40,756 nt of DNA from a virus: positions 1-40,756 of the IMG/VR virus record IMGVR_UViG_3300017783_000063. The stretch is one strand, 5' to 3'. Position 1 is the stretch's first letter. Each line of letters opens with the position of its first letter. A program made the position numbers and the translations under genes. Shown here in pieces: positions 2,873 to 38,500 of this stretch. The notes below the pieces were generated by a model that saw nothing but the letters and a program-made list of their open reading frames with translations, ran no database searches and had not been told where the DNA came from.

Positions 2873-3531
2873 TGAATTTAATTTGTAATCTTCCTGCTGA
2901 GAAAGTATGGGTTCGTAGAGAATACTTACGAGACCATCAAGATGGACACGGGGAGTTTGTCGAAGGCGTCTGGGTAGCAGCAAAGTCTATACCTGGGCGT
3001 GCTTTTTACTTTGAGACATACTTACCCACATATGGAGCAATGTATGACAAACTACCCATTAGTGCGTTTGTACGATCCCCCGAAACCCCAGTCATAGACA
3101 TGAGTTTGGAGAATCTACAATTTTGGAATTGTATGGATTATGGTGTCATGGCAATCAACAAAGGATTTGTCTCATCTATGGACTGTGAGGTCTTCACTAG
3201 AGATCATGGTCTTATGAAGGGACAATATTTGTTTACACTTGATAACTACCACGCAAATCCAGATGTAATAGATAACAATGTAAGTGAAGTGCCACAGGAG
3301 CACAAATCACATAATTGTATCGCATTGAACAATGGTCAGTACGCTTTGTATCCTAATAACAGGATGCGTCTGTATGACCTCTCTATTACCCCTGAGGAAC
3401 CCAAGTTCCCTGACTTCAAAGTATCTACCATAGAATACCAAGTAGAGTCAGGAACTGACTGGGGACGCTTAGGTGACACAGATGATTATTTTTGGCAAAC
3501 ACAAAAGGAGAAACAAAATGGGACACCCTAA
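2872..3531 (+). CDS. Unrecognised 219-residue protein
   Basis: ATG 2872 shares one base with the oxygenase stop codon (TAATG), so translation is probably coupled. The protein is rich in aromatic residues and predicted beta strands, with motifs such as YFETYLPTYGAMYDKLP and FWNCMDYGVMAINKGF, and a C-terminus heavy in Asp, Gln and Lys. There is no signal peptide or transmembrane helix. Five cysteines are scattered rather than paired in a metal motif. Its location just downstream of the oxygenase could mean it is a partner or substrate, but nothing in the sequence shows this. I recall similar proteins of unknown function in cyanomyoviruses but cannot name a family. Confidence 0.8.
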   Translation: MNLICNLPAEKVWVRREYLRDHQDGHGEFVEGVWVAAKSIPGRAFYFETYLPTYGAMYDKLPISAFVRSPETPVIDMSLENLQFWNCMDYGVMAINKGFVSSMDCEVFTRDHGLMKGQYLFTLDNYHANPDVIDNNVSEVPQEHKSHNCIALNNGQYALYPNNRMRLYDLSITPEEPKFPDFKVSTIEYQVESGTDWGRLGDTDDYFWQTQKEKQNGTP

Positions 3532-18538: not shown

Positions 18539-21500
18539 ATGCCCCAGAAGACTAACCTAAATGTAAATCCTTACTACGAGGACTTTGACGCGAGTAAGAA
18601 TTTTTATAAGATTCTATTCCGTCCTGGGTACTCCATTCAAGGTAGAGAATTAACACAGCTACAATCGATTCTACAGAATCAGGTTGAAAGTTTTGGTAAA
18701 TACGCTTTTAAGCAGGGGGAATTAGTTATCCCTGGCGAAGTTGGTCTCAATACAAAACTAGACTACGTTAAGTTGTCTTCAGTTTCGGAAGTTGCTATTT
18801 CTGAAGGAGATGACATCGTATACAGAAAGTATGATATCACACAATTAATTGATCTACAATTACGTGGTTTAACTTCTGGCGTCATTGGAAATGTTTTATC
18901 CGCAAATCTAGCAACTGAAAATTCTTCAGATACCTTATATGTTAGTTACCAAAATAGTGGTAATTCTAACACAGAATCTACTTTCCGCCAAGGTGAAACT
19001 CTAGAAGTTATTAATGGCGTCAATACTCCATTGATGGTTGTTGGTACTGATGGTAGTGTTCTGCCCACCAGTATTAGTGTAACAAATCCAGATACTGGAT
19101 TGACAACCTCTCTTAATAGTCCTGCTATGGGTCTTGCTTCTGCTGTTAAGGTAGAAGAGGGTATTTATTTTGTCAATGGTTACTTTGTAAGAAATCAAGA
19201 ACAACTTTTAGTTATTGATGAGTATTACAACAAACCATCCGCTAAAATTGGTTTTACAATCAAAGAAGAAATTGTAACACCAGAAGAAGACGGATCACTA
19301 TATGACAACGCTATTGGTTCTTCTAACTACACGGCACCTGGCGCACACAGACTAAGAATTAGTTTAGATTTAAAAGAGTTTGCTCTAAACGCAATTACAG
19401 ATAAGAATTTTATTCAACTTCTTACTGTAAGTCGTGGAGTTGTACAAAGAAAAGTATCTGCTGCAGATTATAGTATTTTAGAGCAGACTCTTGCTAGAAG
19501 AACATTTGACGAAAGTGGAGATTATGTAGTAAAAGATTTCTCTGTTGATATTAGAGAGTATGCTCAGCAAGATGGAAACAAAGGTCTCTATGCTGCTGAT
19601 GAATTTGGACTATTCAATGGTCTAACTGCCACAGAAGCTGGCAGGAAGATGATTACTAGCATTGGTCCTGGTAAAGCATACATCAGAGGATACGAGATTG
19701 TTAATAAAGAAACAAAGTATCTTGAAATCAATAAAGCAAGAGAAAGTCTCTCTAGTGACAATGTAACTCTCAAAACAAAAGGTCTTCCAACATATACTAT
19801 TACTAATGTATATGGCAGCGTTCCACTAAACAAAGAGGGATCACAACTTACCGCATATCCAACTGTCTTCTTATCGTCTCTATTCAATGATGGTTATGTA
19901 GGACTGTCTAACACAGAGTCTGATACAAACTATCGTCAAACTATTGACAGAAGAGGTAAGTTTTTTGACTCCAATATTGGAATTAAGACAGTAGCATTAG
20001 AAATTGTTGATGTTAATATTCCCATTACAAGTATTGTTCCAAGTGATTTAGAAAATACCTTTAGTAAGTTATGGTATGTAAAAACCAGAGCAGGAACAAA
20101 CATTGTCGGTTATGTCGATGTTCTTTCATACTCAAAAGTATTCAAACCACTTAAGAACCCAGGAACTACAGAAGAATCTAGATTCTTGGAAGTTACTGTT
20201 GCTGGATTGAAGAGTGACCTAGAAAATATCTTCAAAGAATATGACGAAAGTTCTCAAGGTAAGAACAGAAAAGTCTTTTTGACACAAGCTGATGCCGTTG
20301 GTGATGAAAAACAAAATCTAGCATCAACTACTTTTGCTAACATTGTTGATTATAGTGACACCATCACTCCAATTATTGGAACTGTTAAACCAAGTAACTT
20401 CTATCTACAGGAAAGAGGTGAGGGATTTAATTCCGATTCTGATATTGTAATTTCCAAAGGCACCTTGGCAGAAGGTGGTGAGGCATACAATGCTAAGTTT
20501 GCCTTATCATATTTCGATCCACAATTCTTTACTAAAATTACTCTAGAAACAGTAGTTCCATCAAATACTTATGGCGTTGGTCAGTATATAACTGGTTTGA
20601 CTAGTGGCGCTTACGGTGTTGTAGAAGGAATCTCCAATGGCGTCTTTTCTACTGGAAAGTACTTGTTTATTAAAACTCTATCTGGAAAATTTGTTCCTGG
20701 AGAAACTTTAACAGATGAAGCAGGCACTCTAGTTAAGATTGCTAACGAAAATACAATTTCCCACTTTGTTGTCCAAGAGAGAGGTTTAGGATACCCGTCC
20801 ACATCTACCATTGTTATCAATGGTGTTGGATATGACGCATCACAAGTAGAACTTGCATTTAATGGTCAAGGAATTTATAAAGTAGATATTCTAGACAGAA
20901 TTTCTTTAGACATCGAGTTCTCTAAACCTCCAGTAATTTCGATTGATTCTGGTAGCACAACTCCAACAACTACTGCTGTAATTATTCCTGTACTTAACAG
21001 AAATACTGTTACTACATACACACCACAAAACGTTAAATCTTTTGGAACTTCTTATGGTTCTGGTGGAATTAATTCGTTTACAGCAGACGTTGTTGTAGAT
21101 GACAGGTCATTTGCTAGTGTTAGTGATGTAACTGATTTCACTTTCTTTGGATCTAAAGGAACTAAGTTCCTTGAGTCTACAAGTTTCAGTGCTGATGCTA
21201 GTAGCATCGTTCAGCAAGGAGATCTAATTCAGTTCTCTGATGATGATAATAATGTCATTAGAGCAGTTGTTCAATATGCTACAATCCAAAAAGGATCTTC
21301 TAAAACAAGAATTTATATTGACGAAACTCTTTATGCTGATGTAAGCAACACCAGTGTTGTTTTACTTCGTCCTCAAATCAAAAATCCAAATTCTGGAACA
21401 CTTTTATTCCCAACAGGAAGTAAGCAAGTACAGAAAATTTCAGCTGGATCTGATGATACTAAAATTAAGTATTACTTCAGAAGAGATTTTGTTACTGCTG

Positions 21501-24500
21501 GTTCTACTGGTGGTGGCATTATCTCATTTGCTGCTCAGTTACCATTTGGCACACAAAGATTCACGACATTTAACGAGAAGAACTACATTGTTACTGTTCT
21601 GAATAAGAATAGTGCCGACTTGGTTGAAGATGGTGATATTGTTTACATTGACGTTGACAATGTAGAAGTTACTTCAGCAACTGACACCGCAAGTGGACTA
21701 ACTTCTGGTAGTATCACCTTCCAACTGCCAACTTCGTATTTTAATAGTAACTTTACTGGTGCAAACTATGTTGCTCCTGAGTTAAAACTCACAGCAACTT
21801 TGGAAGTGGAGAATGCAAAACCAAGACTCAAAACTTCTATTGAGAACAAGCGTATTGTTGTTGATTCTGCTGGTGATAAAGTAATTCCTTTCAGGGGAAC
21901 TGATTATGATAGCGACGTTGTAGAAATTCTATCATTCTCCGACGCATACAAATTACGTTATGTATATGAAGGAACTAGCACACAACCCCCCGAAATTGAT
22001 AGCGCAGGTAATCTAGTTTCTGGTACAGATATAACAAATAGATTTACTTTCGATAATGGTCAAAGAGATACAATCTATGATGTTTCTAGAATTGTTCTAA
22101 AACCAGGATTTGACTCAACTGTCGGACAAATTGTAATTGCTTTTGATTACTTCGAGCATTCACAAGGAGATTTTGCAACTATTGATAGTTATCTTCATGA
22201 AGCAGGTGTAACAGAAGCAGAAATCCCAACATTCAATTCATCTGCTCTTGGAAATGTAGAACTCAAAAATGTTATTGACTTCCGTCCTAAAGTAAATACT
22301 AACACCATTGTCGCTGGTTATCAGGATACTTCTACATTAGAAGTAACGACTAGCAACTTCACTGGCACTGGTTCTGTTGTAGCAGCAACTCCTGCTCCAG
22401 ACGAAGGATTAGAGTATACTTTCTCATTCAGTCAGGTTCAATACTTAGATCGCATTGATGGTATCTTCCTTAATAAGAGGGGAGAGTTTATTGTCAAGGA
22501 AGGTAATTCTTCACTTGATCCGACAAAACCAGATTCTATCGAAGATGCTGTTGCTCTATTCTATGCTTATATTCCAGCATATACAACATCTAGTAAGGAT
22601 GTAAGAATTACTCCTGTTGAGCATAAGCGTTACACGATGAAAGACATCGGTAAACTACAGAAACGTGTAGAACGTCTTGAGTATTATACTACACTTAGCA
22701 TCCTTGAGCAACAGGCATTAAATATGCAGGTCAAGGATGAAATTGGTCTTGACAGATTTAAGTCTGGTTTCTTTGTAGACAATTTTGAGACTCATGGTAT
22801 TGGAAACCTAGTTTCTGCTGACTATAAGTGTGCTATCGATAGCAGACAGTCTGTATTGAGACCACAGTCCAATGAAGATTCTATTCTCCTCAGAGAAGTT
22901 AACACCAGAGAAGACCAAAGATCAGTTGCTGGATATCAAAAATCTGGTGATATTGTAACTCTACCATATAGCAGTCTTTCTCTAATAGGCAACGATTTTG
23001 CTTCCAGCACAATCAATCCAAATCCATTTGTTGTATTCCAATATGTTGGTGAAGGATCTTTAGATCCTCAAATTGATCAATGGTACGATCAAGATGTAGA
23101 ACCATTGGTAGTAGATACCAACACAAGTCTATATGATATCTTTATTTCAACAAATACTATTAAAGAGAGTTTCTCCAGTCTCCACGATTCATTTATTGTA
23201 AACTGGGTCGGAACATCCCCATCATTTACATCTATTAATTCTCTTGGCGAAACTAATACCTCCATTGCTAAGTCTTCAGTTAAGTCTGCTTCTGTTGGAA
23301 GTACCTCTAATATTAGTCCACAGAATAATGAACTTGGTAAAGGAGTTCAAACTAAGACGGTTGGTGAAAGTGTTGTTGCTACATCACTACAGTTTTTTGC
23401 TAGAAGCAGAGAAATTAAGTTTGTAATTGGAAGACTCAAGCCTCTAACTAAAGTTTCTGTATTCTTGGAAGGTAGAAATGTCAATCGCTGGGTAAATCCT
23501 GACCTAAGATTTACTGGTATTGCTGGAAACTCACTATCAGCATTTAATGGTCAGGTTGTTGCTGATGCAAACGGAAATGCTAGTGGTCTAATTTTATTAC
23601 CTGCTGGGTTTGCTCCCAAAGAGAATGCTACTTGGACTGGTGATATCGACACAGTAGAATATGACGATTCCTCAGAAGAACTACGTTTTACAACTGGAGA
23701 ACTAACGTTTAGATTTACTTCGAGTGAAACTGATGAAGATAAGACAGGTGTTGATACATATGCCGAACTTAAGTACTATGCTACTGGTTTACTTCCAGAA
23801 AATCCATCTAGTATTGTTTCCACAAAACCATCCTACTTTAAGTCAAATGAAGGTGTACAGTTTGTAGAGAGTAATACTGATGATCCGTTAAGACCTAATC
23901 CTTTAGCTCAAGTAATCAAAGTTGAGAACTTTGATGGTGGAGTATTTGTAACTGGTGCTGATCTTTACTTCAAGACTAAGAGTGAAGAAATTCCTGTCAG
24001 AGTTTACATGACTAATGTGGACTTTAACAAACCCGCCAAGAACATTATTCCTGGTACCGAGAAGTCATTGACACCAGAGACATACCTTAAGTGTTTTACT
24101 TCAGGAAATATTGAAGTGACTCAAGGAGAGGTTGTTGTAGGTTCGAGTTCTGCTGCTTCTGGTCCTATTTCTAAAATTATTGATAAGAATGGTGTTGATT
24201 TGACCCCATCATCTACTGGAGTCTATGCTTTAACAAATGAACAGGTTTATACACTTGTTCTAAGTAATCACAATGGAAGATCTTTCCTACAGAATGAACT
24301 AATTGAAGTTCCATCTCTAACTACAGCAAATGCTACTGGTGGAACTGATCTTACTCTGACTATCGCTAAGAATAGTGGTAAACTTTCGGAAATTAGAATC
24401 ACAAACACTGGTGCTAATTACGACAGTGCTGTTCTTAACATCGAGAGTCCACAACTTCCTGGTGGATCTGTAGCAACTGCCAAGATTAATGTTTCTGATG

Positions 24501-26683
24501 GCAAGATCTATAATTCGGAAGTGTCTATTCCTGGTTTTGGATATACCGAAGCACCATCAGTCGTTATCAAGGGAGTCGGTAATGGTGCTGGGGGATGTAC
24601 TGTAGATACATTTATTGAGATTGATACCCCCGCAGTTAGAATGGGTGTAGCAATCGATTTTGAGGGTCTTACAGAGTCTACAACACCTACACACTTTACT
24701 TTCGATTACCCTGTATATCTAGAGAATGACTCTGAATATGCTTTGGTAGTCGAGACCGATTCAACTGACTATGAACTGTGGTCTTCTTCCCTAGGAGAAA
24801 CTGATCTTGCTACCAGTACTGTAATTACCACACAACCATCTCTTGGATCTCTTTATAAGTCTCAAAACACAGACTCTTGGACTGAGGATCTAGATCAAGA
24901 TCTTAAGTTTACATTATACCGTGCTGAATTTGATAATTCAAGACCTTGTGAGTTACTACTCAGAAATGTAAGTCTTGGTTATGAACTTCTTGAGAAAGAT
25001 CCAATTGAAACTGATGCTACTTCAGCATCTATTGCTACATCACAGTTGTTTAAAAATAACAATAGTATTATTAAAATTAATCATCGAGATAATGGTTTTG
25101 AAGACAGTGGCAATTCCTATGTATTCTTTAGAGGTGCTGATGAAGCGGGCGGCATTCCATCCGAAACATATAATACAAACTTATTCCGAGTTGCTAATTC
25201 TGGTGTAGATTCTTACACAATTAGAACAGTAACTAATGCTTCTAGAAGTTCGGTTTCTGGTGGACATGTTTATGCTACCTACAACAGAAAGTTTGAGGTT
25301 CTATATCCACAAGTACATTATCTATCTGTTACTGGCACAAAACTAGAAACATCAGTTAAGACAACTAATATTATTCCTATTGATTCTTCAACAACAAATT
25401 ATACTTCTTATTCACAGTCCAAATTTGAAAAGACATTCCTTAATGAATCACATTACTTTGAAAATCAAAAAGTAATTGCTTCAGAAATTAATGAAACTCT
25501 AAATGATCTTGACAGATCTATCACATATAAAATTGATCTTTCGTCTCAAGTCACTCACTTATCTCCTGTGATTGATCTTTCTAGTGCTTCACTCAAGACA
25601 GTATCCAACAGAATTGAAAATTCTGGTGGACAAGAAAACAGATACGGCAGAAGAAATCAGTTGGTTGAGTTTTATCCTGTCTTCTCATTCACACTATCTA
25701 CTACAACACCTGGAGTCACATACCAGAATAATCAGAGTGTCAAAGGAAATACTTCTGCCGCTAATGGTACTATTGCTAAGGTTGATGGAAACCAAGTTTG
25801 GGTTAAGGTCAAGACTAAGCAAGGATTTGTTATTGGGGAGGAAGTAGAACTAACTCAATTTGCCAGTGATCAATCAGCACCAACAGTTAATGTTGGATCT
25901 AGTCCATCACAAGTAACACCAATTATCAATAGCTCTACGCAATCTGCTGCTGGAGAATCTATTTCAATTATTGCCAGAAATCCAGTTGAATCTAAAATTT
26001 TAGAAACTTATGATAATAAAATTACTGGTAAGTCTATCGTATGGAATAGAACAACTAGAGTGCTGACATTGAGAACAGATGTTCAACCAATAAATGATAA
26101 TTATACTGCCAGAATTATTGACAATATCCTATATTCTAGAAGGAACGAAATTACTGATCAAATTGCTGACATCTTCCGTGTAGGTGACATTATTTCATAT
26201 CCAGATCAACCTGATGACGAAGCGTTCTTTATGGAAATTGCTAAGGTATCCTATAGTAGTGGTGTTGATTTTGTTGCTGAAGATACGTCTAAGAATAGTT
26301 CTTCTATTGCTAAGTATGTAACTAAAGAGATTACTATTACAAATCCAGCAACATCAGTAGATGTACATCTGCTTGCTAATGTCAAGAATATTGAGAATAT
26401 CGAAGTTCTCTACAAGTACAAGAGAGCATCTAGTCAAGAAAACTTCGAAGATGCTGAATGGTTCTACTTTAATGATACTGGTATGCCAGATACTCTAGAG
26501 ATTGCTGTTGCTGAGAATACTATTTCTAGTATTACCGAAAAGCAATCTTCATATCAAGATCTGAAGTATAGTGTATCCAATCTTCCTGAGTTCTCTTCAT
26601 TCGCAATCAAAATTGTAATGAAGGGAGTAGATCCAGCATATGTTCCTAAGATTCAGGATATCAGAGCAGTCGCCGCTTTCTAA
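18539..26683 (+). CDS. Giant DUF4815-type virion structural protein
   Basis: This 2,714-residue protein begins MPQKTNLNVNPYYEDFDASK and continues with FYKILFRPGYSIQGRELTQL, the N-terminal signature I associate with DUF4815 phage structural proteins. A second hallmark lies at residues about 1361-1440 (YTMKDIGKLQKRVERLEYYT, a short coiled coil). A third near 1617 reads LQFFARSREIKFVIGRLKP, followed by LILLPAGFAP, as in fibre or baseplate proteins whose shafts end in beta-sandwich units. Glycine-rich turn repeats occur near residues 630, 755, 1955 and 2000 (for example GFGYTEAPSVVIKG). Following gene 8, it occupies the place of T4 genes 9-10, so a peripheral baseplate or fibre-attachment role is likely but unproven. 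It lies behind a terminator and a putative promoter. Family call fairly firm; exact role unknown. Confidence 0.8.
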   Translation: MPQKTNLNVNPYYEDFDASKNFYKILFRPGYSIQGRELTQLQSILQNQVESFGKYAFKQGELVIPGEVGLNTKLDYVKLSSVSEVAISEGDDIVYRKYDITQLIDLQLRGLTSGVIGNVLSANLATENSSDTLYVSYQNSGNSNTESTFRQGETLEVINGVNTPLMVVGTDGSVLPTSISVTNPDTGLTTSLNSPAMGLASAVKVEEGIYFVNGYFVRNQEQLLVIDEYYNKPSAKIGFTIKEEIVTPEEDGSLYDNAIGSSNYTAPGAHRLRISLDLKEFALNAITDKNFIQLLTVSRGVVQRKVSAADYSILEQTLARRTFDESGDYVVKDFSVDIREYAQQDGNKGLYAADEFGLFNGLTATEAGRKMITSIGPGKAYIRGYEIVNKETKYLEINKARESLSSDNVTLKTKGLPTYTITNVYGSVPLNKEGSQLTAYPTVFLSSLFNDGYVGLSNTESDTNYRQTIDRRGKFFDSNIGIKTVALEIVDVNIPITSIVPSDLENTFSKLWYVKTRAGTNIVGYVDVLSYSKVFKPLKNPGTTEESRFLEVTVAGLKSDLENIFKEYDESSQGKNRKVFLTQADAVGDEKQNLASTTFANIVDYSDTITPIIGTVKPSNFYLQERGEGFNSDSDIVISKGTLAEGGEAYNAKFALSYFDPQFFTKITLETVVPSNTYGVGQYITGLTSGAYGVVEGISNGVFSTGKYLFIKTLSGKFVPGETLTDEAGTLVKIANENTISHFVVQERGLGYPSTSTIVINGVGYDASQVELAFNGQGIYKVDILDRISLDIEFSKPPVISIDSGSTTPTTTAVIIPVLNRNTVTTYTPQNVKSFGTSYGSGGINSFTADVVVDDRSFASVSDVTDFTFFGSKGTKFLESTSFSADASSIVQQGDLIQFSDDDNNVIRAVVQYATIQKGSSKTRIYIDETLYADVSNTSVVLLRPQIKNPNSGTLLFPTGSKQVQKISAGSDDTKIKYYFRRDFVTAGSTGGGIISFAAQLPFGTQRFTTFNEKNYIVTVLNKNSADLVEDGDIVYIDVDNVEVTSATDTASGLTSGSITFQLPTSYFNSNFTGANYVAPELKLTATLEVENAKPRLKTSIENKRIVVDSAGDKVIPFRGTDYDSDVVEILSFSDAYKLRYVYEGTSTQPPEIDSAGNLVSGTDITNRFTFDNGQRDTIYDVSRIVLKPGFDSTVGQIVIAFDYFEHSQGDFATIDSYLHEAGVTEAEIPTFNSSALGNVELKNVIDFRPKVNTNTIVAGYQDTSTLEVTTSNFTGTGSVVAATPAPDEGLEYTFSFSQVQYLDRIDGIFLNKRGEFIVKEGNSSLDPTKPDSIEDAVALFYAYIPAYTTSSKDVRITPVEHKRYTMKDIGKLQKRVERLEYYTTLSILEQQALNMQVKDEIGLDRFKSGFFVDNFETHGIGNLVSADYKCAIDSRQSVLRPQSNEDSILLREVNTREDQRSVAGYQKSGDIVTLPYSSLSLIGNDFASSTINPNPFVVFQYVGEGSLDPQIDQWYDQDVEPLVVDTNTSLYDIFISTNTIKESFSSLHDSFIVNWVGTSPSFTSINSLGETNTSIAKSSVKSASVGSTSNISPQNNELGKGVQTKTVGESVVATSLQFFARSREIKFVIGRLKPLTKVSVFLEGRNVNRWVNPDLRFTGIAGNSLSAFNGQVVADANGNASGLILLPAGFAPKENATWTGDIDTVEYDDSSEELRFTTGELTFRFTSSETDEDKTGVDTYAELKYYATGLLPENPSSIVSTKPSYFKSNEGVQFVESNTDDPLRPNPLAQVIKVENFDGGVFVTGADLYFKTKSEEIPVRVYMTNVDFNKPAKNIIPGTEKSLTPETYLKCFTSGNIEVTQGEVVVGSSSAASGPISKIIDKNGVDLTPSSTGVYALTNEQVYTLVLSNHNGRSFLQNELIEVPSLTTANATGGTDLTLTIAKNSGKLSEIRITNTGANYDSAVLNIESPQLPGGSVATAKINVSDGKIYNSEVSIPGFGYTEAPSVVIKGVGNGAGGCTVDTFIEIDTPAVRMGVAIDFEGLTESTTPTHFTFDYPVYLENDSEYALVVETDSTDYELWSSSLGETDLATSTVITTQPSLGSLYKSQNTDSWTEDLDQDLKFTLYRAEFDNSRPCELLLRNVSLGYELLEKDPIETDATSASIATSQLFKNNNSIIKINHRDNGFEDSGNSYVFFRGADEAGGIPSETYNTNLFRVANSGVDSYTIRTVTNASRSSVSGGHVYATYNRKFEVLYPQVHYLSVTGTKLETSVKTTNIIPIDSSTTNYTSYSQSKFEKTFLNESHYFENQKVIASEINETLNDLDRSITYKIDLSSQVTHLSPVIDLSSASLKTVSNRIENSGGQENRYGRRNQLVEFYPVFSFTLSTTTPGVTYQNNQSVKGNTSAANGTIAKVDGNQVWVKVKTKQGFVIGEEVELTQFASDQSAPTVNVGSSPSQVTPIINSSTQSAAGESISIIARNPVESKILETYDNKITGKSIVWNRTTRVLTLRTDVQPINDNYTARIIDNILYSRRNEITDQIADIFRVGDIISYPDQPDDEAFFMEIAKVSYSSGVDFVAEDTSKNSSSIAKYVTKEITITNPATSVDVHLLANVKNIENIEVLYKYKRASSQENFEDAEWFYFNDTGMPDTLEIAVAENTISSITEKQSSYQDLKYSVSNLPEFSSFAIKIVMKGVDPAYVPKIQDIRAVAAF

Positions 26684-26692
26684 TTTCCGCGT

Positions 26693-26899
26693 ATGGGTTA
26701 CATTAAAGTTGAAGGACATGATGGTCTCGTTAGGGACGAGACCTCAGGTGCCATCTTAAATCACGACAGTTCTGCTATTGAAGCTAGACGTAGGATAAAA
26801 CACTTGAATTCCGCGTTGGACGACATAAATATGTTGAAGGATGAAGTTTCTGAAATTAAATCCCTACTCAGAGAGCTAATAAGAAATGCCAGCAATTAA
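26693..26899 (+). CDS. 68-residue coiled-coil protein, unknown
   Basis: The protein starts MGYIKVEGHDGLVRDETSGA and ends with a probable coiled coil of about 35 residues (heptads across ALDDINMLKDEVSEIKSLLR). It lies 9 bases after the DUF4815 gene stop and overlaps the start of the next gene by 14 bp, so it belongs to the same transcript. The N-terminal motif of glycine, aspartate and arginine in a beta-hairpin pattern is seen in small proteins of T4-like phage tail clusters, as I recall. It may be an assembly adaptor or chaperone for one of its large neighbours. There is no clear Shine-Dalgarno sequence; translation may be coupled to the gene upstream. Confidence 0.75.
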   Translation: MGYIKVEGHDGLVRDETSGAILNHDSSAIEARRRIKHLNSALDDINMLKDEVSEIKSLLRELIRNASN

Positions 26900-29800
26900 C
26901 GTCGCAAGAACCGACACCTTTGAAATTCAAAGGACTAAGATTAACGAAATTGGAGATCAAATTTTTAATGTCACTGCTGGCGGTAGTGACTTATCTACTG
27001 GTCTTTTAAAACTAGGTGATGGAACTAGATTTAATCCATCTCTGGCATTTACATCTGACGCAGAGCTTGGTATCTACAAACCATCACAAGATACTATTGG
27101 TTTTGTAGCAAATACAAAAAAATTATTTGATATCTCTGATATCAATTTAAAATCTTACAAAAATCTTCTTTTACAGAAGAATATTATTACCACAGAAAGT
27201 CTTGTTATTACCAGCAGTGGTTCTGGATATGACGAAGGAACTTATTCAGACATTCCTCTCCTTGGAGGAACTGGTGATGGTGCCAAAGTAGAATTTGAAG
27301 TTGTAGGTTTCAGTGGCACAACTACAAATATTGGTGCTAACTATAACGATGGTCAGTTTACTGGCATTGATCTTATTGGTGGTACTGGTACAGGTGCGGT
27401 ATGTGCATTTGATGTTGACCTCCTCGATGGTGCTATCACAAACGGAGGTACTGGATATCCACCAGGATCATGGACAGGGGTTCCTGTTACTGGAGGAAGT
27501 GGTACAAACGCATCTCTAAATGTTACCGTTACTGGTACTACAGATATTACTGGCAACATTTCAAATGCTGGTAGTGGATATACACAGGGTGTATATGCTC
27601 AGACTGATGTTTATAACGTTCCTAGGCAGACATATGTAGTAGGAACAACTAATAATGCTAGTCCTCCCCCAAATGAACTTTACACTATTGATGGCAATAC
27701 ACAGCAAGCATTAACATTAGAGATTGGTAATACTTACAGATTTGATGTATCAGATCCATTATTATCAACTCACCCATTGTATTTTCATGGTTCTGGAGTT
27801 CTAGATGCTCTACCCCCAGAAGATTTTACTGTTGTAAGAAATGGATTAGAAGGAAATGCTGGTTCTTTTGCTGACCTAGTTATTCATGACACAGCATCTG
27901 TACAGCAAATTGGATACGGTTGTGCTGCCCACGCTGGAATGGGATCTACCATTTCCGTTGTTTCTGGTTCTCCATCAAATTCTGGTAGAGGTGCTACAGC
28001 TAATGTTACTGTAGATGCTAATGGTAATGTAACAGACGTTATTTTTACTCAGACTGGTGAAGGATATACAGCAGGAGATGTTCTTGAGTTTATCAGCGCA
28101 CAAATTGGTGGAGGTAGTGGAGCAACATATAGCATCACTGGAATATCATACAACAGTACTGTTTCTTCTGCTTCTATTGATACAGTGGGACAAAATTATG
28201 TTGTAAATGATGTCATAGGAGTTGATAATACTTTCTTTGGTGGATTTGGTAGTGGATTTGAATTCACTGTAACTACAAACCCAGGAAAAGTTTCCAATCT
28301 TGATATCACATCATATGGTTCTGGATATACAACAGGAGATTTATTAAATCTACCAGTAGGTGTAACAGGATTAACTACAGTTTTGCCAGGTGAAGTTACT
28401 GGAATTTCTACTACACTAACTGCTGGTCAATCACAGATCACTGTTGCTGACACTTCCAATCTCCAAATTGGAATGAATGTATTCAATGGTCCTGGTGATG
28501 TTGGATTTGTTGCTCAGGGTTGTGTAATTCAAAGTATTGACAGTGGTACTACTTTAACAATGTCATTCCCAGCAGATATCTCTGGTGCGGCAAACTTAAC
28601 ATTCTCATCTCCGAATACAACTTTAATTAATGTAACATCAGTTGTTGGCATTGCTATTGGCGACTCGGTTTCGCAAACTGCTGGTAACGGCGCATTGACC
28701 GCAGGCACTACTGTTAGTAGCATCGATGCTGTAGCTCTGACAATTATACTAAGTACCGCTCCATCCTCTCCTGGTAGTGCTACGTTGTCATTCTCACCAT
28801 CGTTTGGTGTTGGCACTACTCCATTTGAGTATAGAATCGATGTTTTAGGAGCAGTAAAAACAGTTGAAGTTTCTGATGGCGGTAATGGATATTCTGTAAC
28901 TGACTTGCTAAGTGTAAGTCCATCAGATCTTATTCAATCAATTACAAAAGTAGTTAAATTTTATAGCACACAAACACTGACATTCAGTGGCACTGTTCCT
29001 AACAGTGCTATGTCTGCTGGTGATACTATCAAACAAAGAGATGGTGCTGTAGTACAGGTTACATTGACAGCTGGTGCTGCTGTGCTAGCAGAAGCAAATA
29101 ATACATATAATGGTGTCTCTGCTACTGGAGGTAGTGGAAGCGGACTTACTGTAGATGTTGTTCGTGGTGGGGATGGATCACCATCAGCTATTGTAAATGC
29201 TACTGGTTTTGATTATGTCCAAGGAGAAACCGTAACAGTTTCTGGTAGTTTACTTGGTGGTGTAAGTCCAGGTGACGACTTAACATTAGAAATTTCCAGT
29301 ATTACAACATTCGATAATCAAGATATTATTGCCGTACAATCCTCGGGTAGCAATATTCAAAGTATTGTTGTTGCTAATTTAACACAAGCTATTAATACTA
29401 CTTTTGGCGCTGGTGATGTCTCTGTTGTAAATAGCGGAAATACATCATACACTATCGCTACTGCTTCTGCGGAAGGTGGAGACTACAAAATTTTAATCGA
29501 TGATGTCTTTGTTCCCAATCTCACCCTCTATGTTGGCAGCACATATGATTTTGATCTAACAGATGCTTCTAACGCTACACACAATTTTTCATTATCCTCA
29601 TTTGAAGGTGGCGACAAAGCACCATCATTCTATAGCGGAATTGCTTGTACTCTAGAAGATACCTCAACTACACTAACAGTAGCTACAACAAATAACCTTG
29701 CTGTTGGCATGACTGTATCATCCCAAGGTGATGGAAGTTTATCAACAGGAACAAAAGTTGTCAGCATCGATAGTTTAACAACTCTAACTATTGACAGAGT

Positions 29801-32018
29801 TCCAACTAGTGGTGGAGCATCTATTCTAACCTTTACTGGTTCTGAGTATACCGATGGTGTTACTAGAGAAAATAATATTCTTAAAATTAAAGTAATTTCA
29901 TCAACGCCAACTCTATACTACTACGATTCTGGAGATACTGGAGATGATGATGCTGGATTTAACTTTGGTACAGCAGCAACTTTAACAGTTGATCCAAACA
30001 ATCCCAAAACTTTTGGTAGTGGATTCCAAGCAGAAGTTATAAGTGTAGAAAGTACAGATATTGTTGTATCTAATGTAGATACAGGTAATGTTTCTGCTGT
30101 ATCTTTCACTGCTACCGAGCTAGTTACTACTCTTGATGCTTCTGTATCTGGCACATTAACTGCCCCAGATATCAATGGAACAGATTTAGAAATTTCTACC
30201 ATTACCAGCACTGCTGGAATTGTATTAACTACAGCATCTACATTCTTTATTCAGTCAAATATTGATGTATACAATCCAGATACAAGCACATCTACATTAT
30301 CTATAAGTCTGATTGATGGCAATTTAACTACTCAGGGTCAATTAAAAACCTTTAGTGATATTAATGTCAACGATCAAATTGAAATCGAGACAAACGAGAT
30401 TCGTAGTTTAGGAAGTAACGATCTTAAGTTTGTTCCAGCATCAGGAAGAATTGCCAACTTTGCTACTGACAGTGCTCTACAAATTCCAGTTGGAGATACA
30501 AGTGCTAGACCACCATCAAATTTACTAGCAAATGGTCAAATCAGATTCAATATTGATACACAGCAGTATGAAGGATACAATGCTCTAAACACAGCATGGT
30601 CTTCTCTTGGCGGTGTTAGAGACCTAGATGGAAATACTTTCATTAAAGCAGAAGAAACTGTAGGTGCTAACGATAACACACTATGGTTTATTAATGATGG
30701 TATTAATACGATCAAGATTACAAATGAGTTTCTTGAGTTTGTAAATTGTAAGAAAATTTCTTCTAGTAATACAAACGCTCCATCATACATTGAATGGAAT
30801 GCGAATACACCTGTAAATCTTGGGGAATACTTAAAGTACAAGAACAATCTTTATGAAGTAACTGTTGCTGGTACTACTTCTACTTCTGGCAGTGAACCAA
30901 CACATACCACTGGAGCACAACTAAACAATACCGCAGAACTTACATTCTGGGGTCCTGCAGTTGCTTCTCTTAGATTTGAAGAAATTCTGGATATTGAAAT
31001 TGATCCAACTGGTTCTTCTCCACTACTGATTAATGGTGATTTAAGACTTACTGAGAATGCTATTAAAACTGACATTAGCGACCTTATCCTACAACCAAAT
31101 AGTGGTAAAAAATTAGTAATTGATGCTAATACTTCTTTAGTATTACCATCTGGTGCTGATGGAGATAGGGGAGCAGCAGTAGTAGGTTCTGTTCGTTTCA
31201 ACACATCATCCATCCAATATGAGGGTTATGACGGAACCAACTGGGGTTCTCTTGGTGGTGTTAAGGACGTTGATCAAAATACATTTATCATTCCAGAAAC
31301 TGCTCCTGGTGCTAATGAAAATATTTTATACTTCTACAATGATGGTAACAATACTCTCCAGTTAACAACTACAAGACTTGACTTCCTTGCTATTGATACT
31401 ATCAGATCGGTAACAACTGACGAACTTGAAGTTACCGCATCTCTAGTAACATTTGATGCTGCTACTACAACATTAGATAATACATCATTAACGACAACAT
31501 TCTTACATACCAATAAGCAATACTTTGATATTGGTCTTTCTAGTGGTTTAACTGTAGATCCTGTTTTACGATTAGATAATGTAGGAGATGTATATTTTAA
31601 TACAAATTTTGGTACTGGTAATTTCCAGGGAGTTAAAGTATTTGACAGTGATCTAAAAGAGTTTGAACTAGCAGATATCAAATTACTAACAGACAAGATT
31701 ACCCTTGTTAAGGGAACTTCCAACAATGGAAGCACTCTTCTTTATAACAATGCTAGCGAAGAAGCAGCAAGGACAACTGTAGTTGCTCACGATCCAACTA
31801 CAAATGAGAAAGAGTTTATCGAGTTTGGTATTGTTGATGATGGCACAGATGTATATGCTACCGAGTATGGTAACGTTAGAACTGGAACTCAACTAATCAT
31901 TGCGACTTTTGAAGTTACCGCTTCTAACAACATCAGACTAAATATTGAATTGGGGTCTGGTGTCGCACCAACAAACAATGTCAACATCACATTCTCATCA
32001 AACGTAATTAAGAAGTAA
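26886..32018 (+). CDS. Modular virion structural protein with cupredoxin-like domains
   Basis: The 1,710-residue protein opens MPAINVARTDTFEIQRTKIN and GGSDLSTGLLKLGDGTRFNP, an N-terminus I associate with cyanophage structural proteins. Then, in order: glycine-turn repeats (about 110-240, such as GSGYDEGTYSDIPLLGGTG); a cupredoxin-like domain (about 244-360) with H296, H301, C346, H349 and M352; more turn repeats; two VGM/SID-type modules (about 510-630); a second cupredoxin-like domain (about 865-1025) lacking the ligands and holding a nested module; a VRFNT/SLGGV module (about 1213-1285); a carbohydrate-binding-like stretch (about 1300-1360); a second SLGGV module (about 1435-1502); and a beta-rich C-terminus. 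It overlaps the preceding gene by 14 bp. A baseplate-fibre or fibre role is likely from content and position. No catalytic motif is seen. Confidence 0.78.
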   Translation: MPAINVARTDTFEIQRTKINEIGDQIFNVTAGGSDLSTGLLKLGDGTRFNPSLAFTSDAELGIYKPSQDTIGFVANTKKLFDISDINLKSYKNLLLQKNIITTESLVITSSGSGYDEGTYSDIPLLGGTGDGAKVEFEVVGFSGTTTNIGANYNDGQFTGIDLIGGTGTGAVCAFDVDLLDGAITNGGTGYPPGSWTGVPVTGGSGTNASLNVTVTGTTDITGNISNAGSGYTQGVYAQTDVYNVPRQTYVVGTTNNASPPPNELYTIDGNTQQALTLEIGNTYRFDVSDPLLSTHPLYFHGSGVLDALPPEDFTVVRNGLEGNAGSFADLVIHDTASVQQIGYGCAAHAGMGSTISVVSGSPSNSGRGATANVTVDANGNVTDVIFTQTGEGYTAGDVLEFISAQIGGGSGATYSITGISYNSTVSSASIDTVGQNYVVNDVIGVDNTFFGGFGSGFEFTVTTNPGKVSNLDITSYGSGYTTGDLLNLPVGVTGLTTVLPGEVTGISTTLTAGQSQITVADTSNLQIGMNVFNGPGDVGFVAQGCVIQSIDSGTTLTMSFPADISGAANLTFSSPNTTLINVTSVVGIAIGDSVSQTAGNGALTAGTTVSSIDAVALTIILSTAPSSPGSATLSFSPSFGVGTTPFEYRIDVLGAVKTVEVSDGGNGYSVTDLLSVSPSDLIQSITKVVKFYSTQTLTFSGTVPNSAMSAGDTIKQRDGAVVQVTLTAGAAVLAEANNTYNGVSATGGSGSGLTVDVVRGGDGSPSAIVNATGFDYVQGETVTVSGSLLGGVSPGDDLTLEISSITTFDNQDIIAVQSSGSNIQSIVVANLTQAINTTFGAGDVSVVNSGNTSYTIATASAEGGDYKILIDDVFVPNLTLYVGSTYDFDLTDASNATHNFSLSSFEGGDKAPSFYSGIACTLEDTSTTLTVATTNNLAVGMTVSSQGDGSLSTGTKVVSIDSLTTLTIDRVPTSGGASILTFTGSEYTDGVTRENNILKIKVISSTPTLYYYDSGDTGDDDAGFNFGTAATLTVDPNNPKTFGSGFQAEVISVESTDIVVSNVDTGNVSAVSFTATELVTTLDASVSGTLTAPDINGTDLEISTITSTAGIVLTTASTFFIQSNIDVYNPDTSTSTLSISLIDGNLTTQGQLKTFSDINVNDQIEIETNEIRSLGSNDLKFVPASGRIANFATDSALQIPVGDTSARPPSNLLANGQIRFNIDTQQYEGYNALNTAWSSLGGVRDLDGNTFIKAEETVGANDNTLWFINDGINTIKITNEFLEFVNCKKISSSNTNAPSYIEWNANTPVNLGEYLKYKNNLYEVTVAGTTSTSGSEPTHTTGAQLNNTAELTFWGPAVASLRFEEILDIEIDPTGSSPLLINGDLRLTENAIKTDISDLILQPNSGKKLVIDANTSLVLPSGADGDRGAAVVGSVRFNTSSIQYEGYDGTNWGSLGGVKDVDQNTFIIPETAPGANENILYFYNDGNNTLQLTTTRLDFLAIDTIRSVTTDELEVTASLVTFDAATTTLDNTSLTTTFLHTNKQYFDIGLSSGLTVDPVLRLDNVGDVYFNTNFGTGNFQGVKVFDSDLKEFELADIKLLTDKITLVKGTSNNGSTLLYNNASEEAARTTVVAHDPTTNEKEFIEFGIVDDGTDVYATEYGNVRTGTQLIIATFEVTASNNIRLNIELGSGVAPTNNVNITFSSNVIKK
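27615..27966 (+). other. Cupredoxin-like domain with putative type-1 copper site
   Basis: Residues about 244-360 of the 1,710-residue protein show the strand pair LTLEIGNTYRFDVSD, then HPLYFH (H296, H301), then YGCAAHAGMG (C346, H349, M352). A His upstream and a C-x(2)-H-x(2)-M loop downstream is the arrangement of type-1 copper ligands; plastocyanin has C-x(2)-H-x(4)-M. Copper binding is inferred, not shown. Confidence 0.55.
29470..29965 (+). other. Degenerate cupredoxin-like domain with a nested module
   Basis: Residues about 865-1025 repeat the layout of the first copy: LTLYVGSTYDFDLTDASNAT then H899, and later TPTLYYYDSGDTGDD at about 1008. The Cys-His-Met loop is replaced by acidic and small residues. 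Between the two halves lies a complete VGM/SID module (about 929-976, LAVGMTVSSQGDGSLSTGTK). Confidence 0.5.
30523..30750 (+). repeat. VRFNT/SLGGV module, copy 1
   Basis: Residues about 1213-1285 read GQIRFNIDTQQYEGYNAL, then WSSLGGVRDLDGNTFI, then LWFINDGINTIKI. The same order occurs at 31188-31390. Similar sequences are common in phage fibres and look like beta-structured shaft or knob units. Confidence 0.6.
31188..31390 (+). repeat. VRFNT/SLGGV module, copy 2
   Basis: Residues about 1435-1502 read GSVRFNTSSIQYEGYDGTNW, then GSLGGVKDVDQNTFIIPE, then LYFYNDGNNTLQL, matching copy 1 position by position. Confidence 0.6.
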
Positions 32019-32019
32019 T

Positions 32020-32520
32020 ATGGCAACCACAAAGGAAAAATTTGATTCTATAAGTGGATTTTCTGTTGATAAAACAGTTGTTGTTGATGAATTTAGAAAT
32101 GGTAAAGATCTGAATACGTTAGAGATTAAAAACTCTTTCTTTTCTGACAGTAGTACCACCAACTATATTCTTCGTGGAATTAATACCACAATTCTCCAAT
32201 TAGATGATGTTGGTACACAAATACCAATTGGCAACAGCACATTGAATTTTGTCACAGGTCACATTATTGCTGCGAATCCACAGGGTTCTGTTTATTCAGC
32301 AAAACTGGAGACAGTAGTATCCAGTGACTCTGCAGGTAATACAACTGTTCTATCAAGTTTTAGAACGGTTATTAAAGATGATATTCCATCTGGACAAACT
32401 TGGAATATTGAACCATTGGGATCTACCAATCGTTTTAGTTATACAACAACAAGAGCAGGTACAACAAATTTAATTAAATGGTGTGTTTCAACTCAGGTTG
32501 TTAGTGTTCAGTGGAGTTGA
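32020..32520 (+). CDS. Unrecognised 166-residue protein
   Basis: ATG 32020 follows the stop codon of the 1,710-residue gene by one base. The protein starts MATTKEKFDSISGFSVDKTV and is rich in Ser, Thr, Val and predicted beta strands, with a single Cys near the end (WCVSTQVVSVQWS). There is no signal peptide, membrane segment or catalytic motif. Size, beta content and position between two fibre-like genes suggest a small structural or fibre-joining protein, perhaps standing where T4 has gp11 or another short tail component, but there is no sequence reason to equate them. The gene is followed by a 43-base gap with a putative promoter. Confidence 0.75.
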   Translation: MATTKEKFDSISGFSVDKTVVVDEFRNGKDLNTLEIKNSFFSDSSTTNYILRGINTTILQLDDVGTQIPIGNSTLNFVTGHIIAANPQGSVYSAKLETVVSSDSAGNTTVLSSFRTVIKDDIPSGQTWNIEPLGSTNRFSYTTTRAGTTNLIKWCVSTQVVSVQWS

Positions 32521-32563: not shown

Positions 32564-35500
32564 ATGAGTTTTAATATCAATTCCGATAAAGAGTTTATTA
32601 GGGGTTCAAAACCACAACTCATCGGTGATAATGAACTTACTGTTAGAGGTGGAACAGGATCCCTAGAAAGGGAAATCCTGCGAACACAGCTCGATAGTGA
32701 CACTGGTCTACCTCGTGTAGGTATTAACCGAACTGGACAGAGAGTCAACAATATTGAAATCGTTGAAGGGGGTGTTGGATACACTAGTATCCCTACTATT
32801 ACAGTAGATCCACCAACTACTGCTGGTGGTATCCAAGCACTTGCTTCTGCGTTTATTTTTAACGGTCAAGTTGTTAACATCGCTATCAATAACCCTGGTA
32901 GTGGATATACAGAAGCACCAAATGTTACTATTACTGGTGGTTTTGGTGCTGGTTGCGAACTTAATGCAGTTCTTGACACCGTTGATTTTGAACTTGATAT
33001 CAATGGTGCTATTAGAACCTCAACATCTATCATCTCTGACACAGCAAGAGTTTTAAACCTTGACATTGATAACTTTGTTACTCCTGACTTAGCTTTAAGA
33101 GGTCCACACCTTAAAACATACATAAACGGTACGGGTAACTTATACCCAACCCAACCAAAGATTTTCCAAAAGAACGAGTATGTATACTTTGGTGGTAATG
33201 TATACCAGGCATTAAATAGTGGAGAGGCAACTGTTATCGCTCCCGTCCACACCACTGGTATCGAACTTAACGGAGAAGTTAACTTCCAACACATTGGTTT
33301 CCGTGTTGATGATGCCAATGCTCTTGGATTTGGAGAAACAGGAGAAGCTGGATTATTCCCAAGATCTATTACTCCTTTGCTTGGAGATAGATCAGACAAG
33401 ATTGCTACTACAGAATACGTCCTCAACCTAGCAACGAATGACGTTGGTGGTCGTATCTATGTTTCAGAACAGATTGGTTCTGACTTAAATGATGGACGTT
33501 CCGCTGTTGCTCCTGTCAGAACTATTAAGAAAGCAGCGCAATTAGCGTGGGCAACTCCTGGTGTTAAAGAGACACTTATTGTTTCGGGTGGAGATTATGT
33601 AGAAGATAACCCAATCTCTTTACCTCCTGATGCGTCAGTTGTTGGTGATAACCTTCGTCTTGTTATCATCAGACCAGGAAATCCTGGTAAGCACATTTTC
33701 AAGTTTGGTGATAAAAACTATGTTATTGGCGTAACATATAGAGACAGAGTTGATGCTAATGGAGATGCTGTCTCTACATGGGACTTCGCAATGGTCTTTG
33801 ACGACAAACAGAGAGTTGTCTTAGATTACGAAGTTAATGGAGACTTTGGAGTTTCGTTCCCAATTGGTCATCAAATCTTTGGTCCTGATCAGTTTAGATT
33901 AGGATTCCAGCAGAATGGTGGTGGGTCATCACTACAAGTAGGAACACAAGTTGTTGGTGTTAACCAAGGTGCTGTTGCTGACGTTATTGGTATTGATTAT
34001 ACCACTACAATTGGTCCGAGCGCATTCCTTTCTGGTAACGTAGATGTAAGAGCAATTAGTGGTTCTATTGTTGAAGGTGAACAATTTAGATACATCACAT
34101 CAATTACTACAGGATCTGCTTTAGGACTAACAATTACTGAGACTATTGGAAATAATGGTTTTAGAACAACTACTGATCCTACTGGTATTATTGCTGCTGG
34201 GGATTATATCTACCTGGATGACACCGATGATTCCAGTTTTACAAATGGATATTTTCAAGTATTCACTGTTATTGCTGATCCTAACGGCGCGACTTTCTAC
34301 GATGTTACGGTAATTCCTGTTTTTGGATCTACTGGTTGGGACACAACACAAGCAGAAACAATTAATATCAATGCTGCTTCAGCAACATTTTTTACCTTTG
34401 ATACAATTTCTCTAAAATCAATTAGAGCAGAAGGTGAGGTTGTTTCCGTTGGGGAGGATTTAACCGCAACTTTACCTATTCAGAGAATTGACTTCTCTCA
34501 GCAAGGTTCATTTACAGATGGTCTACAAAGCGATCAGTTTGGTACCTCAGAGGACTTAGGTGGTATTGTATTCTACACCAATGAACTAGTTGGCAGAAGC
34601 AATATCCACGATTTTAGGGAAGGTGAAGAGATTACTATCGCTGGTCTTCCAACAACAACTCCCGACTTGTCGTTCCTTAACGGCAAACAGAGAATTTATA
34701 AAGTTCTGGAAGATGCTGACGGTAGAGCAAGAAGATTTGTAATTCCAAAAAAAGCACCAGCAATTAATGACTCAAACTTTGACCCAGGTCAATTTGCTAC
34801 GGTAAGCACATATTCTAGAAGCGTAACTCTATCGTTACTAAACAGTCCAAACACATTCCCACTATCAACTCCAGTAGAGAGAAGATATCAGGATGCTTGT
34901 AATTTAATTAGAAATAACAGAGATTTTATTGCTGAAGAAGTTGTTGGTAGAATCAACAACGAATTTAAGAAAGAGTACTACTCAGTATATGATATCTCAG
35001 GAAATGACTTTAAGATATATCTTGGTCCTTCTAGATTTGAACATACGTATGATTCTCTCAATCCAACAGGAACTGTAACAGTTGGTGGAGTAAATTATAC
35101 TATTACAGATTTTGTTTATGACCACTCACTTACTGGTGTAGCTACAATTACAACAACTGTTGTTATTCCAGCATTAGCAGAAGATAATATTGTACAACTT
35201 GCTGGTATTCAGGTAACATGTAGCAATGGAACTAAAATATACCCAAGTTTCAATATTCCAACTAGTGACGATGAGTGTAAGCAAGATATCAATCACTTCC
35301 TTAATGCTCTAGTTAGAGACTTAGAATTTGGATCTAACCATAATATTCTTGAAGCTGCTCAGAAGTATATTGTTAATGGCAAAATTGCGTACATCGAAGA
35401 TGAAATTATTCAAAATGTTCGTGCTATTGAGTATACTAAAGAACTAGTAATCTATGCGATGTGTAACTGGAGAACTGGCAACAGAACTCCAAGTGATCCT

Positions 35501-38500
35501 ATTTACACTCCACAATATTCATCAATTGTTAGATACTTTGACGATAGTGTAATCACAACCACTGCTTTGTTGAACGCTGATGGTACAACAAACAACAGTG
35601 GATTCGCTTGTGATGATGTAAGATCTGCTATTGATACTTTAGCATATCTCTGGGTAGATGTTATTGGCAACAATGCTTCTGGTACATACCTAGACGCCGC
35701 TTACTTGATTGCTAGAAACAGAGATCTAATTGCTGACCAGGCACTACTTGATACAGAAACAACATATCCATCCCTAGGACTATCTGATATACATCAGAGA
35801 AAATGCCGTCGTGACATCAGTTTGATGCTTGATGGTCTGATTAGAGACTTGGTGTTAGGTGGTAATAGTGGAATCGTAACAAATGGTGAGCGTTACTTTA
35901 CTGGAACTGCACTAACTGGTATTGATGCGAATCAATTAGATGAGACTATCTACGCATACCAGAGAGTCACTGTTTATGCAACTCAGGCAATGCGTAATTG
36001 GACTGATGGAAATTCCATTGGAACAACTCCAGTTGGCGCAACGTACACTGCTTCGTCTGGACAAGTCACCACTACTATTAATGGGTTAACTACTCTACCA
36101 ACAACTTCAGATAGAATTGCTTTTGCTGAAGGAGCATTAACCTTCAGTTGTTCATTAAATGGTGGTGGCAATCATGCTTCACCAGAAAAATATGATTCTA
36201 ATTTTGGCGATAGTTACGCTATTACAAATGTATCTGGAACTGTTGGTGGTCCAATTACAATTACATGTTCTGTTCCTGCCGCACCTGGAGCACAAGTCGC
36301 ACATGCGTTTGTAAGTGCTAAAGCAGGTGCTACTATCATCATTTATGATCCTGTAACTCTAACATCTCTAATTCCCAAGTTTGAAGATTGGAACATTCTC
36401 CTGTACCCGACACAACCACTCTGTGCAAATGTTGCTGCTACTATTAGCACTTCAATGGGTCTTTTTGAAGATCTTCTAGATGGTACAATTCTTCCTGGCG
36501 AGACTGCTATAAACACAGGAACTTTATACGATACAGCATCCATTATTACATATCCTGATTCTTTTGTAACTGATCAGAATAATGTACGGATGTCTATTCG
36601 TGGTATTTACAATGACAATCCAATTATTGAGGCATCTCCGTACACCCAGAACGCATCTGTTATCTCTTTCCTAGGTGGTGGCGGTGCTCTGGTTGATGGT
36701 TCTAAAGTTAAGCAACCCAACTGCCCTTTCCCTGGTCTAGAACTAGATGGTTCGGCAACATTCCCGAACCAAGGTAAATCGATGGTTGCCTCGGCATTCA
36801 CGATTGTTTCGTTTGGTGGTACAGGATACAAGGTTATTGAAGATGGTTATACTCAGTTAGTTTCAGTCTTCGTTATTTTCTGTGCTGATGGTGTCCTTGC
36901 TGAGACTGGTGGTTACTGCTCTATCACTAACTCTGCTACTAACTTTGGTATCTACGCTCTCCGTGGTATTGGATTTAGAAAAGAAGCATACGATTTTGAC
37001 GTTGCTACTATCACAAATGTATCTGCTACACCAACTGGCAGAACAATCTTTAATGTTGACAATCTAGGTAGAGAACCACTAGAGCATTATATCGTTAAGA
37101 TTGATGGTGTTGAGAATACAAACCCAGATATTGAATACTTCATCGATTCTGTTGGGGCAGTTGGTGCTGGTCCTCCATTTGCCGCTGAACTAACCATTGA
37201 TGATGGTCAAGGTCAACCCATGAATTTGACCGATAGTGCAACTGGAAACCCAATCTCTGCTGGTTCCTTAATTGGATACACCATTAGACTACACAGACCA
37301 TCTATTGTTAACTCTTCCTCACATACTTGGGAATTTGCTGGTTCTGGTACTAACTACCTAGCATTACCTGAGAACGGTGGTACTAAAGTCGAAGCAAACG
37401 AACAAGTATCTGAAAATTATGGACGTGTATATGTCTCTGGTACTGATGAACTTGGTGACTTTAAAGTTGGTACGTTCGCTAGAATTGAAAACAGAACTGG
37501 TAACATTACCTTTACGGGCACAGTTACAATCTCGGAAGTTGAGTTCTTAAAACTAAAAGGTGGCGACGTTGTTGTTACTGGATTCTCTGCTGACAATACT
37601 CTTGGTGGAGCAACTACAAGTGACTCCGTTCTACCTACCCAGAAAGCAGTTAGAGATTACATCACTAACAACCTCGGTCCATACATCAACAAACCATATT
37701 CAACTAATGCTGTTCCTAGAGCACTGGTTGAACTCACAGACTCTGGTAAAATCTCTATTGACCAGATTCCAGCACTAAGACCATTTGAAGTTTATACTGT
37801 TGCTGACCAAAATGAAAGACTCGCTATTGAAGGAGCACTTGCTGGCGATATCGCTATCCAACAGGATACCACAACATCGTTCATTCTTAATAATGATCTA
37901 GACAGTGTATTCGCTGGATTTGTACCTGATCCAACAGTTCAATTTACTCTCGGTGATATTTTTACTGGAAGTATATCAAACGGTCGTCTTCAGGCAACCG
38001 AGTATAGACAAGGTGTTGTCTATAGAATTAACCTTACCGATGGTGGTACTGGATATACACAACCACCAACAGTTACCGTTTCTGGAACGGTACAACAGGG
38101 TGGTGTAGAAGCAGCTGCTGTCACAACTATCGCAAATGGTGAAGTTGTAACAATTGACCTCGTAGTATTCAATGGATTCTTAGGTGGTAAAGGATACACC
38201 GCTGCTCCTACTGTTACTATTTCTGCTCCTCCAGGATCTGGAACTCAAGCACAAGCAATTGCTCTAATTGAAAGTAGACTCTATGGTGACGTTGTTAATA
38301 GAATCCTTATTGAGGATACTGATACTATCGATAGTAGTGATATCCCAGCAGTAACAATTAACATCACTAGAGTTGTTAACACTTCTGCTAATAATGCCAA
38401 CAACTGGGTATCTCTATCATCTAATCAGATTGCTGCCTCTGATATTACATCAGGTGTTATTGAAACTGATAGATTGGCATCTGGTGGTGTTGCTAACTCT

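Follow-up and report, generated by a model that had tools for sequence, protein, structure and literature searches.

A probable cupredoxin with a type-1 copper ligand set in a baseplate-associated protein of marine T4-like phages

In a 1,710-amino-acid protein encoded by a marine cyanophage-like virus, residues ~241–361 probably form a cupredoxin domain in which the type-1 copper ligand set is complete. The domain is an accessory module, and the long protein that carries it is associated with the baseplate in T4-like marine phages (Kyanoviridae). It is likely that this domain, which we refer to as copy 1, holds a real type-1-like metal site. We infer that the bound metal is copper and that the domain is exposed at the virion surface.

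A predicted cupredoxin module among baseplate genes

The window analysed here spans the 40,756 bases of one virus record, which is probably fragmentary. Its genes are T4-like baseplate and tail genes, and its nearest annotated phages are Kyanoviridae cyanophages. The gene order runs from wedge subunits through gp6, gp8, a gp7-type protein and a 68-amino-acid protein to the 1,710-amino-acid protein, a 166-amino-acid virion protein and a giant tail-fibre protein (Table 1), which places the gene of interest amid baseplate genes. The body of the 1,710-amino-acid protein belongs to PHROG 6005 (profile match with E 0 and 1,866 bits), and its orthologues include Syn1_099, S-PM2p086 and S-MbCM7_081. 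The Syn1 and S-PM2 orthologues are annotated as virion structural proteins, and the putative virion status of the 1,710-amino-acid protein rests on this annotation. They belong to a series in which S-SM1 virions were analysed by mass spectrometry and the resulting annotation was carried over to orthologues (PMC3037559). Inside the same baseplate gene cluster we also observed a 2OG-Fe(II) oxygenase-like protein (2210–2872) and a protein that matches a PHROG named ferredoxin and has no Pfam match (2872–3531); at 1834–2145 lies a short protein with a PAAR-like motif, which may form the tip of a tail spike. A partial cupredoxin-profile match at residues ~1412–1481 of a 3,540-amino-acid structural protein (ORF 5933–16555) was weak (E 0.0014 in a small set) and lacked the ligand loop, and we did not accept it as a domain.

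Table 1. Coordinates of the cupredoxin copies, candidate ligands and neighbouring genes in the 40,756-base window
Feature	Position	Strand	Evidence
gp8-type baseplate wedge protein	16613..18442	+	
gp7-type baseplate wedge initiator / 'virulence-associated' structural protein, upstream neighbour	18539..26683	+	
1,710-aa virion structural protein bearing the cupredoxin domain, PHROG 6005	26886..32018	+	
Copy 1, predicted intact cupredoxin domain, residues ~241–361	27606..27968	+	homology, AlphaFold2, fold match, profile–profile
H296, upstream His ligand candidate; model residue 59	27771..27773	+	
H301, non-conserved, no ligand	27786..27788	+	
C346, Cys ligand candidate; model residue 109	27921..27923	+	
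H349, second His ligand candidate; model residue 112	27930..27932	+	
M352, axial ligand candidate (Gln in some orthologues); model residue 115	27939..27941	+	
Copy 2, second cupredoxin homologue, interrupted by an inserted domain; no ligand loop left in this window (LYYYDSGDTGDDD)	29415..30005	+	
Beta domain inserted in copy 2, model residues 70–143	29622..29843	+	structural match (8eci, 9n71)
166-aa virion structural protein, PHROG 5449, downstream of the 1,710-aa gene	32020..32520	+	
Giant tail-fibre-type protein, cut by the right end of the window	32564..40756	+	

A sequence-only reading of this DNA had proposed a cupredoxin-like domain with a putative type-1 copper site at 27615–27966 (residues 244–360), a span that agrees with the limits we obtained from homology. 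The residue positions that it gave were exact in the translation of ORF 26886–32018: H296-P-L-Y-F-H301 is encoded at 27771–27788 and C346-A-A-H349-A-G-M352 at 27921–27941. It had offered both H296 and H301 as the upstream His. H296 is invariant in relatives, whereas the H301 position is occupied by H, R, S, Q, N, E, A, Y and other residues; this free variation rules out H301 as a ligand and leaves H296 as the sole upstream candidate. The proposed Cys-His-Met loop was confirmed; in length, C-x2-H-x2-M corresponds to the amicyanin loop and not to that of plastocyanin. The CxxHxxM motif occurs once in the 10,469 amino acids of the closed genes of the window, compared with 0.0019 occurrences expected from composition. 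Together with the conservation of the ligands under a ligand-masked profile (see below), this single occurrence argues that the motif is not due to chance.

We predicted the structure of copy 1 with AlphaFold2, using 50 relatives. The resulting model was confident (pLDDT 91.1, pTM 0.85) and adopted the Greek-key β-sandwich of cupredoxins, a fold borne out by its structural matches. Foldseek ranked rusticyanin first, followed by a three-domain nitrite reductase (NirK), CotA and other multicopper oxidases, and plastocyanin. The structure prediction that the sequence-only reading had called for favours its cupredoxin-like domain: among solved structures, blue copper proteins and multicopper oxidases match best, and they include plastocyanin, one of the two proteins it had named for comparison. 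VIA aligned copy 1 with two-domain laccases (Z 8.6, rmsd 3.0, 104 residues) and with the N-terminal cupredoxin of the NirK structure 2dv6 (Z 8.5, rmsd 2.8, 99 residues). In plastocyanin and amicyanin, the type-1 layout consists of a His before a strand, a Cys at a strand end, and a His and a Met in a loop. In our model, H59 lies right before strand 61–64, C109 ends strand 103–109, and H112 and M115 sit in the loop that joins the final two strands, before strand 117–122. The four ligand candidates therefore occupy the canonical type-1 strand-end positions in the predicted structure, with an upstream His and a Cys-x2-His-x(2–4)-Met/Gln segment between the last two strands, as in type-1 copper cupredoxins. 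Structural matches to the domain fold in BFVD included predicted β-sandwich proteins of Pithovirus and Marseillevirus genomes.

Searches of Pfam, NCBIfam and PDB sequences with the domain gave no match above threshold, only sub-threshold multicopper-oxidase and blue-copper matches. The domain falls short of the curated cut-off of PF00127 (Copper-bind), to which it is connected solely through bridging sequences. PF00127 searches in domain-bearing genomes recovered some Copper-bind proteins that are intermediate in type (GHPFY...YYYQCSLHNGMYGTI) and that the phage profile matched with E ~1e-6 to 1e-5 (500 sequences). When the phage alignment was compared by HHalign with bridging plus classical Copper-bind sequences, the match reached 95.8% (E 6.9e-9) and all four ligands were paired, so that H296, C346, H349 and M352, the ligand set of the sequence-only reading, align with the Copper-bind ligands; against classical cupredoxins alone the match was weak (16.8% and 30.6%). 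Because the ligand-masked profile did not recover the bridging cupredoxins, part of this link rests on the shared ligands. The predicted fold match is evidence separate from the sequence link, though AlphaFold2 too saw the ligands. Five Copper-bind proteins from Prochlorococcus and marine Bacteroidetes genomes, with the pattern HPFY...YYYxCSxH..GMxGxI, are intermediate between the phage domain and classical cupredoxins.

Ligand conservation and a single intact site

Using tblastn, we found the domain in 42 phage records, which comprised Synechococcus, Prochlorococcus, Pelagibacter and Methylophilales phages as well as marine virus records. Three IMG/VR scans added many further copies, with 263 confirmed stretches in one scan alone, and the domain was also present in tail-fibre proteins of unrelated marine phages. 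The C-x(2)-H-x(2)-M loops of marine phage structural proteins, which the sequence-only reading had mentioned, are real and very common. We aligned 19 copies, set all four ligand columns to X and searched with the resulting profile, which returned 164 matches. All 90 of the distinct matches that span the four ligand columns had H, C, H and M at these positions. Six columns of the family are fully invariant: the four ligands, a Tyr two residues ahead of the Cys and the Gly that follows the Met. As a check on search bias, we considered the copies found through ligand-free search peptides, and 17 of 17 had H, C, H and M. Genome contigs of marine bacteria and archaea contained 34 copies, of which 30 were HCHM and one was HCHQ; in the remainder, the Cys-His-Met part was lost jointly or the copy was cut. 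The cellular-genome bearers include large surface proteins that contain Ig-like, Calx-beta or RTX repeats, and others that appear phage-derived.

Intact sites varied only by an axial Gln, or in one case by a loop of plastocyanin length (C-x2-H-x4-M). Gln is the axial ligand of stellacyanin. The variation among intact sites stays within the range of characterised type-1 sites, with Met or Gln as axial residue and a loop of amicyanin or plastocyanin length. The axial Gln (C-x2-H-x2-Q) was seen in copy 1 of ten proteins and, in place of Met, in one cellular copy. Two viral proteins outside the PHROG 6005 orthologue set contain two tandem cupredoxin domains, both with intact ligand sets.

Further along the 1,710-amino-acid protein, near residue 848, a profile match identified another half-domain, homologous to the first. 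The AlphaFold2 model of this copy 2 (pLDDT 81) has a β domain inserted into it, and the insert is similar to domains of solved phage structural proteins (8eci, Z 8.4; 9n71, Z 8.3). The split outer shell matched copper nitrite reductases and a blue copper oxidase weakly (Z 4.5–4.8), and copy 2 taken whole gave no Foldseek match. In orthologues, the loop of copy 2 often reads C-x5..8-H-x2-E-G-G (for example, CASGAGHEDEGG), as in five proteins that include those of S-PM2 and S-B43. This lengthened loop, in which the Cys and His are kept and the Met is replaced by Glu, may represent a different metal site.

To compare the two copies across the family, we gathered orthologues through the C-terminal body alone, leaving the copper domain unused, by an IMG/VR scan and a phage search. 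The set of 91 usable orthologues, which also took in phage records fetched earlier through the copper domain and from which one truncated protein was excluded, had an intact site in copy 1 in 66 cases, in copy 2 in 21, in both in 0 and in neither in 4. After dereplication, exactly one intact site was present in 64 of 68 orthologues (copy 1 in 46, copy 2 in 18), two in 0 and none in 4. Copy 1 was undetected in proteins whose copy 2 is intact. The orthologues without a canonical site were those of S-PM2 and S-B43, which have the copy-2 Cys...His...Glu variant, together with that of S-WAM2 and one further orthologue. The copy-1 label changed eight times on the best tree, with at least four of the changes on supported branches. 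The supported independent pairs (2–4) ran in opposite directions wherever they differed, and were too few for significance (sign test p 0.125–0.5). Given that nearly all proteins keep one intact site and that the copy holding it has switched several times, the protein would appear to need one metal site. This one-site rule, as read from the orthologue sequences, would argue for a metal-dependent function beyond a metal-stabilised fold.

Role of the site and competing readings

In the mechanism that we favour, the apo-domain would fold in the course of virion assembly and the folded domain would then take up one copper ion, locking the Cys-His-Met loop. The metallated domain would work on the outside of the baseplate or fibre, where it would most likely make an adhesive or structural contact with a metal-dependent geometry. 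We consider a metal-locked contact of this kind the most likely role because the domain occurs in baseplate-cluster proteins, in tail-fibre proteins and in surface proteins of marine bacterial genomes. Our confidence in a structural or adhesive role is evenly balanced, and a redox or copper-sensing role is possible but unlikely. We also advance, tentatively, a more specific proposal: in marine phage virions, each baseplate or fibre polypeptide may contain a single type-1 copper centre as a metal-dependent working part maintained by selection, with the site mobile between two positions in the same protein. A copper- or redox-gated step in host recognition would be one example.

The same ligands could instead hold a structural ion, either Zn(II) or Cu(I) only, without forming a natural blue copper site. 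Cupredoxin sites made without copper can take up Zn, the sequence and fold evidence fits Zn(II) or permanently reduced Cu(I) equally, and several copy-2 domains have Cys...His...Glu instead of Cys-His-Met. However, a Cys, two His and a Met are the type-1 copper set, a Met or Gln axial residue is unusual for zinc, and the variation that we observed is confined to Met/Gln and to known copper loop lengths; we regard a zinc or Cu(I)-only site as rather improbable.

We give a still lower probability to copper delivery, in which a scarce metal borne by the virion makes host metal-uptake receptors take virions for cargo, a Trojan horse for which the Ferrojan horse hypothesis is the analogous proposal for iron in phage tails. 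We know of no receptor for such delivery of copper. The presence of the domain in tail and baseplate proteins, widespread among marine phages, would suit this idea. The Trojan-horse hypothesis has been applied to one marine phage whose tail fibre has putative iron-binding domains (PMC11705849). Yet type-1 sites hold copper tightly and are atypical as exchange sites, and the domain is also found in surface proteins of marine bacterial genomes.

The cupredoxin fold can evidently do without metal here, as the ligand-less copy 2 persists in the same protein, and copy 1 might likewise be a metal-free, ephrin-like structural fold whose conserved residues are retained for packing. This is very improbable: the ligand columns are four of only six fully invariant columns, and a site is kept elsewhere in the protein when copy 2 loses its own. 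The least credible reading is an enzymatic one, in which the domain would be part of a multicopper oxidase or a copper nitrite reductase, or a remnant of such an enzyme. In its favour, H296-P-L-Y-F-H301-G resembles the laccase HPxHLHG motif, and the structural matches include laccases and NirK alongside weak Cu-oxidase matches. However, the domain lacks the histidines of the trinuclear site, with Y299 occupying one position and H301 non-conserved, no HxH pairs of the type-2/type-3 sites are kept, and each protein has just one intact cupredoxin domain.

Relation to known copper proteins and phage tail proteins

The type-1 cupredoxin itself is already known, and cyanophages carry plastocyanin (petE) as a metabolic gene. 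A phage baseplate or fibre module with intact ligands and one site per protein appears to be new, in that we did not find it in the literature searched: full-text searches returned neither a paper that places a cupredoxin in a tail protein of a phage nor a description of a copper site there. Some of the proteins may already carry a flag from automatic superfamily annotation. Our results suggest that virus particles contain a previously undescribed copper centre. The pattern of exactly one site makes the need of the phage particle for such a centre directly testable and, if the need is real, copper would be a factor in phage infection in the ocean.

Compared with the PF00127 proteins amicyanin, pseudoazurin and plastocyanin, the phage domain shares the predicted sandwich, the upstream His before a strand and ligands in register, and with amicyanin it also shares the C-x2-H-x2-M loop length between the last two strands. 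It differs in having HP, rather than PHN, at the first ligand, and whereas the PF00127 proteins are soluble electron carriers, the phage domain is a module within a 1,710-amino-acid virion protein. Rusticyanin and the extra N-terminal cupredoxin of NirK (2dv6) are its top fold matches and, like it, show a type-1 domain as a fused accessory module; identity to them is only ~15–20%, and the phage protein has no catalytic partner domain. Laccases share the fold (Z 8.6) and a His-Pro at the first type-1 ligand, where the HPxxF motif of the phage domain resembles laccase HPxH, but the phage domain lacks the trinuclear copper ligands. Among phage proteins, the Kyanoviridae PHROG 6005 proteins and the P-SSM2_295 tail-fibre protein belong to the same family as the 1,710-amino-acid protein or contain the same domain, and are annotated simply as structural or tail fibre. 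The iron-binding phage tail proteins of the Ferrojan horse hypothesis likewise place a metal site in a tail protein, and differ from the cupredoxin described here in metal, fold and ligands.
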